Below are positions 21,024 through 27,520 of a stretch of 64,000 nt of DNA, in pieces. The stretch is from Deltaproteobacteria bacterium ADurb.Bin207 (GTDB lineage Bacteria > Myxococcota_A > Polyangia > Polyangiales > Polyangiaceae): NCBI GenBank assembly GCA_002070115.1, contig MWCO01000005.1, forward strand, positions 1 to 64,000. The letters run 5' to 3'. The translations under genes were made by a program, and so were the position numbers. Positions within the stretch are counted from its first letter, which is position 1; each line of letters opens with the position of its first letter. The notes beneath the pieces are model-generated. The model ran no database searches. It was not told where the DNA came from and saw nothing but the letters and a program-made list of their open reading frames with translations.

Positions 21024-23099
21024 TCAAAACACATCCGTCAGTTCTTCCTCCGAAAAAGACACCGGCACCACCGCAAGCATCTCCGCCACATCGACAAGGC
21101 CACGCTCCTTGGCCTCTTCGAGCCATCGGCTCAACGTTCCCGGACACACGATATCGAGCCTGTCCTTCGCTCGCGATACGACCGTATAGATATTTCGTTT
21201 CCCTTGCTCCGTATCCGGATAGCTCTCATCCGTAGCATCGAGCACAATCACCGCATCAAACTCCAATCCTTTGACTTGACGCATGTTGGTGACCGTCACG
21301 CCCGGTCGAAACGCAAACGAGTCGTTGTGCCCGATGCGCACATCCACTCCATCCTTGGACAGCCGGGCGCCGAGGTCTTGCGATAGGCTTTGCACGCTGG
21401 CTCGGTGTCGCGCGACGACACAAACGTGTGCCAACGGATGATCTCGGAGCACTGCGCGGATTCTCTCTTCCGCACATTCGCGTTGCCTCTCCTCGCCTTC
21501 GGTGAACGTAAGGGTTGGCAAGGTGCCAAAACGTCCGTGATTGCTGGTTTCTCCAAGGATACTGTCAGCCACGCGCATGATACTGCCCGTCGAACGATGG
21601 GCCACTTCGAGCCTGGACACCCTTGCTCCCGCGATGCCAAGCTCGGCAATCAACGCGTCCCACCCGATGAAGTCTGCTTCCGGCACGATCTTTTGATTGA
21701 GGTCACCCGCAATCGTCACCCCCATTCTCGACCGCACGGCGTCCAATAGCACCTTGAGTTCGACGGCTCCGAAGTCCTGAACCTCATCGATGACGAGATG
21801 GTCGTATCGTTCCACGGTATCCAAGTCATGAGCGCTCGGAAGCCCACCGTTTTTGATTTGAATGAGGCGAAGCAGGATCGCGAGATCTTCGAAACCAATA
21901 TAGGGCCCGGGTCGTCGAGGCGAAGCGTCGCGATGTTGAAGTGTTTTTTGATAGGTAGCCAGCGCTTGAAGGTCTTGCGATGACTCCTCGGGCAAGCATT
22001 TTTGCAACAGTCGCATATCCGTGAGGATGGCCATCAACTCCTCTTTGTATTTGCGCACCCGTTCCACGGCGCCATCAAAGATGAGTGCCACTTGTTCGAG
22101 ACGTTGCCGTTCAAACCCCGACGCCACATCGCGCGCCTGCCTTGCCGCGCGCCGAATTTCCACGAGCGCACGAACGACCGGCTCGTTGGACACGTCGAAA
22201 CGTTCCGCCCAGGCTTCTCCTTTGTACGGAGCAAGCTTGGTACGAAGCCATTCAGCGATTCGAAGGCGCTGCTCACGAACGAATACCTCGACCGCATGCA
22301 GAATACCGAGACGTTTCTTCATCCGCACCGCTTGCTCTTTGCCTGGATAGGGCGAGGAATCGATTTTGATATCCCCTTTGTAGGCGTCAGAAACGCGATG
22401 AAGCGCCCACCCGTGAAACGTGTCGAGCACTGCCTGCTGAAGCCCCAACGACGGCAAGATATCGCGTACGAACAAGCTCAAGGCCTTGTTGAACATCACA
22501 ATGAGAACCCGCGAAGGATCCACCGCAACTTTTCCCTCCATCACCGGATTGGCCATCCACGCTACTCGATACAACGCCACGGAGGTTTTTCCGGAACCCG
22601 CGCGCCCCTGAAGGATGATCGGTGAATCGGAATGCTGAGCGATCACACGATACTGCTCTCGCGACAACAACGCGAGAATGTCCGGTAATCCCGTTTGCGC
22701 ATCGATCTTTCGAGCTGTATCGACGCGAAGCTCAAACCCTTCATGGCCACGAACCACAACCGCTTCGCGCTCCACATCCGAGTAATGCAACACATGAAGC
22801 GCTCGTTGTTGCGTCTCCAAACGCCCTTGAATCTCGACCACCCCTTTGATTTGGTTCAGCCCTTCCCGATCCACCTCGAAATCATCCCCTGGCTCGCATT
22901 CCATCAAGGCCCGAGCAATAGGATGCGTCACCGGAACGATATGATGCTCGACCGTCCGAAACCTTCCAATCCGATACTCCCGTAGTCGATCGCCACTTCG
23001 AAGCGTCACATAACCAAACCACGGATTGTCGTTGTCCAGCAGGGAACAAGACGTTCGAAACTCGTCATCGAGCCGACTCGCGAGCGCAACGGGATCCAT
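21024..23099 (-). CDS. UvrD/HelD-type ATPase with N-terminal GreA/GreB-like domain
   Basis: 691 residues. The P-loop GRAGSGKT (165-172), Walker B region HLVIDEVQDFG, AGDLNQKI, the motif V-like MRQVKGLEFDAVIV and motif VI-like TVVSRAKDRL define a superfamily 1 UvrD/Rep-type ATPase similar to HelD. HelD proteins remove stalled RNA polymerase. Residues about 27-90 (VTLRSGDRLREYRIG, then PVTHPIARALMECEPGDDFEV) align by eye with the C-terminal FKBP-like domain of GreA/GreB, which docks on RNA polymerase. The combination suggests an RNA-polymerase-associated remodeller. ATG at 23099 has TAGGAG upstream. It is convergent with the membrane protein gene and transcribed alone or after the Cys-repeat gene 80 bases upstream. 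Confidence 0.85.
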   Translation of the reverse strand: MDPVALASRLDDEFRTSCSLLDNDNPWFGYVTLRSGDRLREYRIGRFRTVEHHIVPVTHPIARALMECEPGDDFEVDREGLNQIKGVVEIQGRLETQQRALHVLHYSDVEREAVVVRGHEGFELRVDTARKIDAQTGLPDILALLSREQYRVIAQHSDSPIILQGRAGSGKTSVALYRVAWMANPVMEGKVAVDPSRVLIVMFNKALSLFVRDILPSLGLQQAVLDTFHGWALHRVSDAYKGDIKIDSSPYPGKEQAVRMKKRLGILHAVEVFVREQRLRIAEWLRTKLAPYKGEAWAERFDVSNEPVVRALVEIRRAARQARDVASGFERQRLEQVALIFDGAVERVRKYKEELMAILTDMRLLQKCLPEESSQDLQALATYQKTLQHRDASPRRPGPYIGFEDLAILLRLIQIKNGGLPSAHDLDTVERYDHLVIDEVQDFGAVELKVLLDAVRSRMGVTIAGDLNQKIVPEADFIGWDALIAELGIAGARVSRLEVAHRSTGSIMRVADSILGETSNHGRFGTLPTLTFTEGEERQRECAEERIRAVLRDHPLAHVCVVARHRASVQSLSQDLGARLSKDGVDVRIGHNDSFAFRPGVTVTNMRQVKGLEFDAVIVLDATDESYPDTEQGKRNIYTVVSRAKDRLDIVCPGTLSRWLEEAKERGLVDVAEMLAVVPVSFSEEELTDVF

Positions 23100-23179
23100 T
23101 GTCGACGACTCCTAGGTGTGAAGTTGTTTTCGATTCCACCCAGAATACACCAATTGCGTGCCGTTCGGCCTCTCGAGAC

Positions 23180-24256
23180 TCATCGATCCGAACCAGGCTT
23201 GGTGACACAAGCCTCACCATCGGTGGAAAGATAACATTGACTGTCGGACTTGCAGTTCTCCGACGCTTTGCACCCCTGTTCCGACGCTCGACACTGGCCG
23301 GCCTCGAGCTTGCAACGACCAAGCTTGATACACCACACGGAGCTTCGACAATCCGCTTCCGAAGCCGCTACACACCGTCCATCGCGCTGTACGCAACGCC
23401 CCTTGACCTTGCAATCCTCAGAATCCGCGCAATTCAGCCCAATACAACCCCCATCGCGAACCTGACAACGGCCCTCGGTCTTGCATACTTCGGACTGCGT
23501 GCAATGCTCGTCGCGACTTGCAATGCACCGATCTTTCTTTTCCGACAAGCTGCAAAGTCCATCGCGACGACACGCCACCGATTGCTGACAGCCTTGCTCG
23601 GTATACGTCGAACACCAGCCTTTCTCATCAACACCGCATTTGCCAACTTGCAAACAGCAAGCGGCTTTCGACGGATCGCACACACATACTCCGTCCCGTG
23701 CCACACACCGGTCCGTGCTTTTGCACAACGATGCGCAATCCGCATCGCCAGCAACGATGCACTTGCCCTGGCGCGATGAGCATTCACCGTATTCGATGCA
23801 GTTCTGCGATTTGGCGCAATCCGCATCTTTTGCCGCCACGCATGTATGAAACGATGCGGAGCACAGCCCCGCCTGCTCGCAAGCTGTTTCGCGCGCACAT
23901 TGCGCATCGGATTTTGCGACGAGAAAATAGGCGACGACGATCAAAACCGGGAGGGCAGATCCAATGGCCAGAACAAAACCATAGCGTTTCAGGATATGCG
24001 GTTTGTTTTGCGCCGAAGCCGTTGAGTCGGTCTTTTGGGGAGGTGGAGTAGGCGCAGGATGTGGCATCGAACTTGGAGCCGTGGAAGGCGGGGGTCCCCA
24101 AGGGGCATGACACGCCGAGCAGGTGGTAGCGCCGGGAAATACCGGCTCACCGCAGGATCGACACGGAACGGGTTTGAGCAAAGGTGCCCCGCAATGAGGG
24201 CAAACCGCTACTTTTTCAGATACTTTTCCGTGACAGGAAGGACAGGAAGTAAGCAC
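23180..24256 (-). CDS. membrane-anchored zinc-ribbon protein with Cys-rich tandem repeats
   Basis: About 358 residues. The N-terminus has two zinc ribbons (CPSCHGK...CPHCGAP and CRSCGEP...CSACHAP), a Pro/Ser linker, one membrane segment (FVLAIGSALPVLIVVAYFLV) and then an outer region of at least seven Cys-rich repeats of 24-29 residues. The repeat pattern is C-x5-C-x4-G-x-C-x5-G-x-C, for example DCAKSQNCIEYGECSSRQGK. The ribbons would be cytoplasmic and the repeats extracytoplasmic, probably disulfide-bonded. The start is GTG at 24256 or GTG at 24271; both lack a good ribosome binding site. No function is known to me. It follows the TPR-zincin gene by 60 bases on the same strand. Confidence 0.75.
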   Translation of the reverse strand: MLTSCPSCHGKVSEKVAVCPHCGAPLLKPVPCRSCGEPVFPGATTCSACHAPWGPPPSTAPSSMPHPAPTPPPQKTDSTASAQNKPHILKRYGFVLAIGSALPVLIVVAYFLVAKSDAQCARETACEQAGLCSASFHTCVAAKDADCAKSQNCIEYGECSSRQGKCIVAGDADCASLCKSTDRCVARDGVCVCDPSKAACCLQVGKCGVDEKGWCSTYTEQGCQQSVACRRDGLCSLSEKKDRCIASRDEHCTQSEVCKTEGRCQVRDGGCIGLNCADSEDCKVKGRCVQRDGRCVAASEADCRSSVWCIKLGRCKLEAGQCRASEQGCKASENCKSDSQCYLSTDGEACVTKPGSDR

Positions 24257-24316
24257 CCATCCACTGTACACGATCCATGGTCATGGGTTCGAACCTTCCG
24301 CGATGGGTGGCAAGCT

Positions 24317-26554: not shown

Positions 26555-27520
26555 TCATCCTCCCGGCAAAAACGGCAGCCCACACTCCACACAAAACGAA
26601 GTCCCCTCGATGTGCTCGTGTCCACAATGCGAACACACCCATTTGTCCTTTTCCGCATCGAATCGCAGCGGCGCGCGATCGGGGCCCACCACCCCCACAG
26701 CCGCATTGGGCAGGGTATCTTCTCGTTCGTCGATTCGCACGATCACGACGGAAATATTGTCTTTTCCCCCAGCTTGATTGGCTCGTTCAATCAGTTCCAA
26801 ACACGCTATCTCAGGGTCGTCGATCTCATCGACGACTTCGAGCATCGTCGAAGACGAAATCATGCCGCTCAGGCCGTCGGAACAGAGAAGATAAGCATCT
26901 CCTGGCAACGTCATCTCAGAACGTATTTCCGGCTCGACGTTCTCTTTGGTCCCCAGCGCACGAGTAATGATGTTTTTGGGAATGCCCGCCATCACATCTT
27001 CCGCGATTCCTGGTTGAGACCATCGAACGTCATTGAGAAAGGAATGATCTTGCGTGATTTGCTCGATGTCCCCCACCCCGATCCGATAACACCGACTATC
27101 GCCCACGTGGGCCACGTGAATCATCCCGTCCGATGATAACACCACAGCCACGATGGTTGTTCCCATGCCCTTTCGATCTGGGTTTTCCTGCGCCGCCCGA
27201 ACGACCTGTTCATTGGCATGCCGTATGGCCAACACCAAGCGCACCGCATCCGGCACCAAGTCGGGATACTCGGGAAGAGTAAGCTCACTGTCTGGGCTAT
27301 CACGAGTGGCTTCAAAAAAATGTTCCACGGAATTCGCCGCCAACGCACTCGCCACATCTCCCGCGGAATGGCCCCCCATCCCGTCGGCAACCAAAAATAG
27401 TCCTAGATCCGGCCTGGATAGTACTGTGTCTTCGTTGTGCTTGCGCTTACGCCCAACGTCCGTAACGGCAGCACCATGGAACCTCACCTCCGAGGATTTC
27501 TTTCGAGAATCATCTGTCAT
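26555..27520 (-). CDS. PP2C-family Ser/Thr protein phosphatase with C-terminal zinc ribbon
   Basis: 321 residues. PPM/PP2C motifs are complete: TDVGRKRKHNEDTVL, LVADGMGGHSAGDVAS, GMGTTIVAVV, VAHVGDSRCYR, QDHSFLN, LLCSDGLSGM and GGKDNISVVIV. The metal-binding Asp residues are all present, so it should dephosphorylate phospho-Ser/Thr. The last 35 residues form a zinc ribbon (VCSHCGHEH ... FCVECGLPF), an uncommon addition that could anchor the enzyme to a partner. The gene is divergent from an FHA-domain sigma-54 activator, with a 175-base spacer. FHA domains read phospho-Thr, so the two probably act on the same signal. Confidence 0.92.
   Translation of the reverse strand: MTDDSRKKSSEVRFHGAAVTDVGRKRKHNEDTVLSRPDLGLFLVADGMGGHSAGDVASALAANSVEHFFEATRDSPDSELTLPEYPDLVPDAVRLVLAIRHANEQVVRAAQENPDRKGMGTTIVAVVLSSDGMIHVAHVGDSRCYRIGVGDIEQITQDHSFLNDVRWSQPGIAEDVMAGIPKNIITRALGTKENVEPEIRSEMTLPGDAYLLCSDGLSGMISSSTMLEVVDEIDDPEIACLELIERANQAGGKDNISVVIVRIDEREDTLPNAAVGVVGPDRAPLRFDAEKDKWVCSHCGHEHIEGTSFCVECGLPFLPGG

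Follow-up and report, generated by a model that had tools for sequence, protein, structure and literature searches.

A HelD-family ATPase without the secondary-channel arm in Myxococcota

The DNA analysed here (the window) comprises 64,000 nucleotides, positions 1 to 64,000 of contig MWCO01000005.1 of Deltaproteobacteria bacterium ADurb.Bin207 (GCA_002070115.1), and carries on its minus strand a complete gene for an ATPase related to HelD, a motor protein that removes stalled RNA polymerase (RNAP) from DNA (Table 1). The frame of 691 codons opens with an ATG at 23,099 and ends at 21,024; the initial annotation had located it correctly and had given no strand. It had also described a complete SF1 ATPase behind an N-terminal domain, and this is borne out by a motif scan in which motifs Q, I, II, III, IV, V and VI are all intact, with Q at residues 147-149, Walker A (GRAGSGKT) at 165-172, motif II (DEVQD) at 438-442 and motif III (GDLNQ) at 465-469, followed by AHRST (500-504), VKGLEFD (609-615) and SRAKDRL (642-648). 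Pfam reported above cut-off only UvrD-type and generic P-loop domains (UvrD-helicase, E = 1.9e-12, in the first half of domain 1A). Domain 2A forms 163 continuous residues lacking the 2B subdomain of UvrD and PcrA, and superposes on the C-terminal domain of Bacillus subtilis HelD (6vsx) with a VIA-align Z of 25.5 and an rmsd of 1.8 over 159/159 residues.

Table 1. Features of the armless HelD-family gene in the window, and phosphoesterase genes beside its relatives
Feature	Position	Strand	Basis or remark
Armless HelD-family ATPase gene, whole, 691 aa	21024..23099	-	ORF; full-length orthologs 41-49% identical
AGGAG Shine-Dalgarno-like site, 9 nt 5' of ATG	23109..23113	-	Read from sequence
TAG in frame, five codons 5' of ATG	23112..23114	-	Sequence; open frame 695 aa vs protein 691 aa
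Single N-terminal helix, residues 3-21, at position of HelD coiled-coil arm	23037..23093	-	AlphaFold2 model, pLDDT about 90-97
Gre-C-like HelD NG domain, residues 25-130	22710..23027	-	Model pLDDT 93; VIA-align; hhalign
Decayed DWRxP (Trp-cage) block IVPVTHPIARALM, residues 54-66, resembling Gre SPIARxL	22902..22940	-	Ortholog/HelD alignment
SF1 domain 1A, first half, residues 138-226, Q motif and Walker A	22422..22688	-	Pfam; motif scan
Helical insert in 1A equivalent to the clamp arm (Bumper, CO), residues 227-430	21810..22421	-	hhalign; length
SF1 domain 1A, second half, residues 431-497, motifs II and III	21609..21809	-	Motif scan; PDB HelD alignment
SF1 domain 2A, residues 498-660, continuous, without 2B insertion, motifs IV-VI	21120..21608	-	VIA-align
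Calcineurin-like phosphoesterase genes	L159 8643-9572; L157 13130-14170; L161 1686-2741		Adjoin armless HelD

The HelD-like character proposed initially was upheld by sequence, profile and structural searches alike. The best NCBIfam model was HelD_BACSU (E = 1.9e-36), although the score against the curated HelD equivalog was 125 of the 419 bits required; the same NCBIfam HelD models were matched by 11/11 proteins of set A2, classical class III HelDs among them. B. subtilis HelD (6wvk_H) was the closest solved relative by sequence (E = 6.2e-30; 1.4e-50 for the clade profile) and also led the Foldseek search (E = 6.6e-26, against 1.6e-17 for the best UvrD) with the full-length AlphaFold2 model, which was built from 31 aligned sequences and has a mean pLDDT of 87.6 overall and 93.1 for residues 1-137. 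VIA-align ranked DNA-bound UvrD (Z up to 35.1) above HelD (up to 28.4) for the motor, an order that may reflect merely the closure state of 1A and 2A and that we did not take as membership, because the HelD structures are in an open, RNAP-bound state and the Foldseek E-values rank the opposite way. The insert in 1A is helical in the model (pLDDT 82-98), and the clade profile of this clamp arm matched those of other HelDs (hhalign 99.7%, E = 6.7e-27); comparison with Bacillaceae HelDs gave no match (0.6%), so clamp-arm homology is demonstrated only to class III, Nitrospinaceae and L065-group HelDs. In a quick, unrooted tree built without UvrD-type proteins, the window protein and its closest relatives formed one clade (SH-aLRT 100) within HelD, set between the class I proteins of Bacillaceae and those of class III, with arm-bearing Nitrospinaceae HelDs as sister.

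What sets this clade apart, and what the initial annotation overlooked as the truly unusual feature, is the missing coiled coil. Only 25-29 residues precede the NG domain in all nine clade members with a readable N-terminus (25 in the window protein), compared with 57-147, as called, in 78 arm-bearing relatives. A longer, hidden N-terminus carrying a coiled coil is ruled out in the window protein and in L008, L034, L036 and L047 by in-frame stops that lie a short way before the start; these stops, together with the short N-terminus, show that the antiparallel coiled coil that classical HelD carries as its secondary-channel arm, in an N-terminal domain of 50-150 aa, is absent. We consider HelD ancestry and arm loss, taken jointly, nearly certain. 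The protein has the HelD motor with its continuous 2A, the clamp arm, the NG domain and a position nested among HelDs in the tree; it lacks the secondary-channel arm and the absolutely conserved DWR motif. With these two defining features gone and the other, structural ones present, it is a variant of the HelD kind rather than a plain member, and it is not a Gre fusion. The literature covered by our search contained no description of an armless HelD. A phylum-level relative, L166 (G438:C245), has a helical N-terminus of roughly half length (about 65 residues before the NG domain) and GWRHAL replacing DWRxP, and is possibly a transitional form between arm-bearing and armless proteins.

The initial annotation had instead singled out a resemblance to the GreA/GreB C-terminal domain in VTLRSGDRLREYRIG (residues 31-45) and THPIARALMECEPGDDFEV (residues 58-76). 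An HMM search gave a weak match below the cut-off: Pfam GreA_GreB scored residues 1-137 at 14.8 bits (E = 0.028) against a cut-off of 26.9, and the whole protein at E = 0.22. A model of Gre C-domains built on 30 Gre proteins from the order to which the window organism belongs gave 14.2 bits for the N-terminus, reached by 0/20,000 shuffles (maximum 10.7), yet a HelD NG model scored higher at 19.7 bits. In hhalign, the clade NG profile matched HelD NG at 98.9% and Gre C at 45.8%, the latter falling to 14.4% without the window protein (other HelDs, 3.7%), and none of ten relatives gave even a weak Gre_C match. The Gre signal is real, but it spans only about 26 residues and is confined to the window protein. 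Structurally, VIA-align of the NG domain placed eleven HelD entries first (Z 8.6-10.8), followed by Gre and Gfh1 at Z 4.5-5.5 over 58-76 residues (GreA/Gfh1, 4.6-5.5; GreB, 4.7), with unrelated phage portal proteins (Z up to 5.1) interspersed in that range. The top Foldseek rows for this domain were Gre/GreB (E about 0.04-0.11, probability 0.92-1.00), and Gre/GreB chains were the only confident solved matches (2pn0/2p4v; E about 0.04, probability 0.98-1.00). A Gre fold match is therefore supported by the model, although it is weaker than the HelD match, and the Gre-like fold of the HelD NG domain is already known: Pei et al. found the HelD N-terminal region remarkably Gre-like (PMC7749165), and Kouba et al. 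described the coiled coil plus NG domain (PMC7749160). By model, profile and tree, with HelD first and Gre second, this is an ordinary HelD NG domain, the base of the lost arm. The resemblance thus holds for the fold but does not set the protein apart by a Gre_C domain; most of the special Gre claim falls, since the region matches classical HelD N-termini, an outcome the initial annotation itself had named as counting against it.

The SPIARxLxG-type block on which that claim leaned is likewise not a feature of the group. Aligned with IVPVTHPIARALM of the window protein, the orthologs read IVDWQHPMAAAYY, VLDWRHPLAEAYY, IIEWKHPLAAAYY and IVDWRAPIAQPYY, with DWRHP, DWRAP, DWQHP or EWKHP where the window protein has PVTHP; DW is retained in most orthologs and replaced by PV in PVT of the window protein, and DWR is altered in L035 and L166. 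Among arm-bearing HelDs an automatic scan found DWR in 76/78, one of the others being DWK and L108 proving to be DWR on inspection. The inserted residue of the class III-type DWRX[A/S]P is absent, the clade spacing being DWRHP/DWRAP. Because the ortholog block is the HelD DWRxP, the Gre look is a HelD motif decayed in the window lineage, on a fold common to Gre and HelD.

Armless proteins were found in one gammaproteobacterial MAG and, within Myxococcota, in about ten genomes; full-length members occur in 8 or 9 of the 289 genomes sampled in the class and in another 2 families of the phylum, and they are separated from other HelDs by a clear score gap (at least 525 bits against at most 224). 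The exception to the phylum, L047 (PCTP01000158.1), comes from a low-GC MAG labelled Gammaproteobacteria and is basal in the clade, which suggests transfer between phyla; both its base composition and the presence of a DUF1415 neighbour are consistent with surroundings that are not myxobacterial. Classical HelD is also encoded in 10/11 carrier genomes, including that of the window (G000:C6:13328-15553), the exception being 83% complete; armless HelD is hence an added paralog, not a replacement. An alignment-based search recovered relatives where single-protein back-translated searches of genome and viral contigs gave none, and plasmid and phage collections yielded only remote UvrD/HelD-like matches. 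Two of the remote ATPases, L167 and L168, lie on Deinococcus plasmids, and one of them aligns from residue 25 of the window protein. One MAG ortholog (L046, 392-2413, on the contig of L006) has an in-frame TAG after residue 429 with the rest intact, either a sequencing error or a pseudogene.

Judged from sequence conservation, constraint in the armless clade has shifted onto the clamp arm and away from the NG domain. At a matched overall identity of about 0.45, NG and clamp arm are conserved at 0.287 and 0.438 in this clade, and at 0.456 and 0.304 in arm-bearing HelDs. The ratio of clamp-arm to NG identity is 1.43 in the armless clade (1.38 without the window protein), on about ten sequences that are mostly from MAGs, versus 0.55-0.87 in eight arm-bearing groups. 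Random sets of seven arm-bearing proteins of similar diversity never exceeded 0.76 (3000 sets, 0/3000 reaching 1.43); as the sets are phylogenetically non-independent, this contrast is strong but does not amount to a formal probability. Clamp-arm length is likewise fixed, at 204-206 residues in every armless member and 137-313 elsewhere, and identity in this arm is about 44% across distant families, while of all folded domains in the clade NG is the least conserved. At positions invariant in the clade, the window protein is conserved to about the same extent as its relatives, indicating that it is not a decaying copy.

Neighbourhood comparison found only family-restricted neighbours, with no transcription-linked neighbour or operon partner conserved across the clade. 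In the window, a Cys-repeat zinc-ribbon protein (23180-24271, minus strand) lies directly upstream of the HelD gene on the same strand, with an 80-bp gap, and beyond it, also on the minus strand, are a protein that joins TPR repeats to a zincin-like metallopeptidase domain (PF06262; 24317-25513) and a PP2C phosphatase whose C-terminus carries a zinc ribbon (26555-27520). A calcineurin-like phosphoesterase (IGDxHG type, PrpE/Pnkp-like) adjoins armless HelD in three genomes of one family (Table 1), and a different metallophosphoesterase does so in L162. In one genome only, an armless HelD with a broken N-terminal frame sits inside a type I-G CRISPR-Cas locus (L160, G154:C182, 590-10716) in the order cas3g, csx17/cas8g1, csb1, csb2, HelD, then cas2 and cas4-cas1 on the opposite strand. 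An anti-phage role was considered and rejected, as PADLOC gave only generic UvrD-type matches and did likewise for the classical HelD of the window's genome.

Among known systems, class III HelD (Deltaproteobacteria/Myxococcota, e.g., M. xanthus; PMC8655204) shares with the window protein its phylum, NG domain, clamp arm, continuous 2A and SF1 motor, but the two are about 27-28% identical, and the window protein has neither the coiled-coil arm, the extra residue of DWRX[A/S]P nor DWR itself. Class I HelD (B. subtilis, 6wvk/6zca; PMC7749165, PMC7749167), the best PDB match by sequence and Foldseek, has the same domain order, and its DWRxP spacing recurs in the orthologs L008, L036 and L037 (DWRAP); it differs in its 'Pike' coiled coil (residues 4-96), which the window protein lacks, and in its clamp arm of 247 as against about 204 residues. 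Class II HelD, or HelR (M. smegmatis, 6yxu; PMC7749160), is similar in the NG domain (Z up to 10.8) and motor, but again the coiled coil is missing from the window protein, in which a PCh-loop was not identified. The Gre C-terminal domain of GreA, GreB and Gfh1 (PF01272) shares the fold of residues 28-92 and an equivalently placed PIA(R) block, whereas the window protein scores below the Pfam cut-off, has neither the Gre coiled coil nor its acidic DXX(E/D) tip, and is nested in HelD by tree and profile. UvrD and PcrA share the SF1A motor core; the window protein differs in lacking 2B, in a clamp-arm insert that replaces 1B and in the extra NG domain. The initial proposal of a design distinct from classical HelD is thus right as to distinctness, which comes from arm loss and the shift of constraint and not from a Gre domain.

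HelD inserts two of its parts into RNAP, the coiled-coil arm and the clamp arm (PMC7749165, PMC7749160). Our preferred reading, to which we give a probability of roughly 0.5 and in which RNAP binding is itself inferred, is that this HelD-derived motor remodels RNAP in an ATP-driven manner through the main channel only, with no invasion of the active site. The main channel would be the chief side from which armless HelD engages RNAP or a transcription complex; as the 1A/2A motor binds and hydrolyses ATP, it would move the clamp arm, which would pry the beta' clamp open or displace downstream DNA. With no secondary-channel arm, it would neither dismantle the active site nor push out the RNA 3' end, and its substrate would be DNA-trapped or post-termination polymerase rather than paused elongation complexes, complementing classical HelD. 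The NG domain would persist as a structural support that may also dock weakly at the beta' rim. In B. subtilis HelD, W137 of DWR anchors the N-terminal arm to 1A and contributes to coupling clamp-arm movement to ATP hydrolysis (PMC7749167); once there is no arm to hold, the Trp could be lost, as it is in the window protein, and its loss fits the main-channel reading. More tentatively, and at somewhat less than even odds, the clade may constitute a fourth structural class of HelD that works through the main channel only, its clamp arm and ATPase opening RNAP or evicting DNA beside classical HelD.

Removal of the N-terminal domain abolishes rifampicin protection by B. subtilis HelD (PMC12802891), so an armless protein might lose its RNAP function altogether. 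As the main alternative, we think it rather unlikely that RNAP recycling has been abandoned for a nucleic-acid translocase or helicase of the helicase IV or UvrD kind, with the clamp-arm insert as its DNA-binding domain, although the polymerase-anchoring coiled coil is lost, the NG domain is relaxed, every SF1 motif is intact and the fit of the motor to DNA-bound UvrD is good (Z 33-35). The 2A domain, lacking the 2B of UvrD/PcrA, matches HelD 2A over its whole length, the insert has its homologs in HelD clamp arms and classical HelD is stated to be without helicase activity (PMC8655204), while the generic UvrD-like PADLOC matches that might favour a translocase are common to the classical HelD of the same genome. 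Less probable still is Gre-style docking on RNAP by the NG domain, with the PIARAL block selected for it. The fold match to Gre/GreB and the weak, non-random Gre_C signal speak for such docking, as does P60, invariant in 31 aligned HelDs, which aligns with GreA P125 and GreB P123 in the block of GreA S121P, a change with which RNAP binding was lost in vivo and in pull-down competition (PMC7527559). However, alignment by eye puts Pro56 at the S121 position, the very change that impairs GreA binding, Gre-like letters occur in the window protein only, the NG domain is the least conserved folded domain, and arm loss together with the shift of constraint to the clamp arm makes docking less likely as the main function. 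A relaxed, partly degenerate paralog of little function, as the loss of DWR here (and its alteration in L035 and L166), the patchy distribution and the TAG of L046 might suggest, is very improbable given the intact 691-aa frame, the full set of ATPase motifs and a clamp arm held at 204-206 residues and about 44% identity across distant families.

HelD has been described as two-pronged, with the secondary-channel arm and the main-channel clamp arm acting together (PMC7749165, PMC7749167). On the main-channel reading, a natural clade without one prong and with tighter constraint on the other would mean that the two activities of HelD have been separated by evolution, and armless HelDs would offer a natural test of which arm recycles the polymerase, and of whether clearing nucleic acids requires invasion of the active site.
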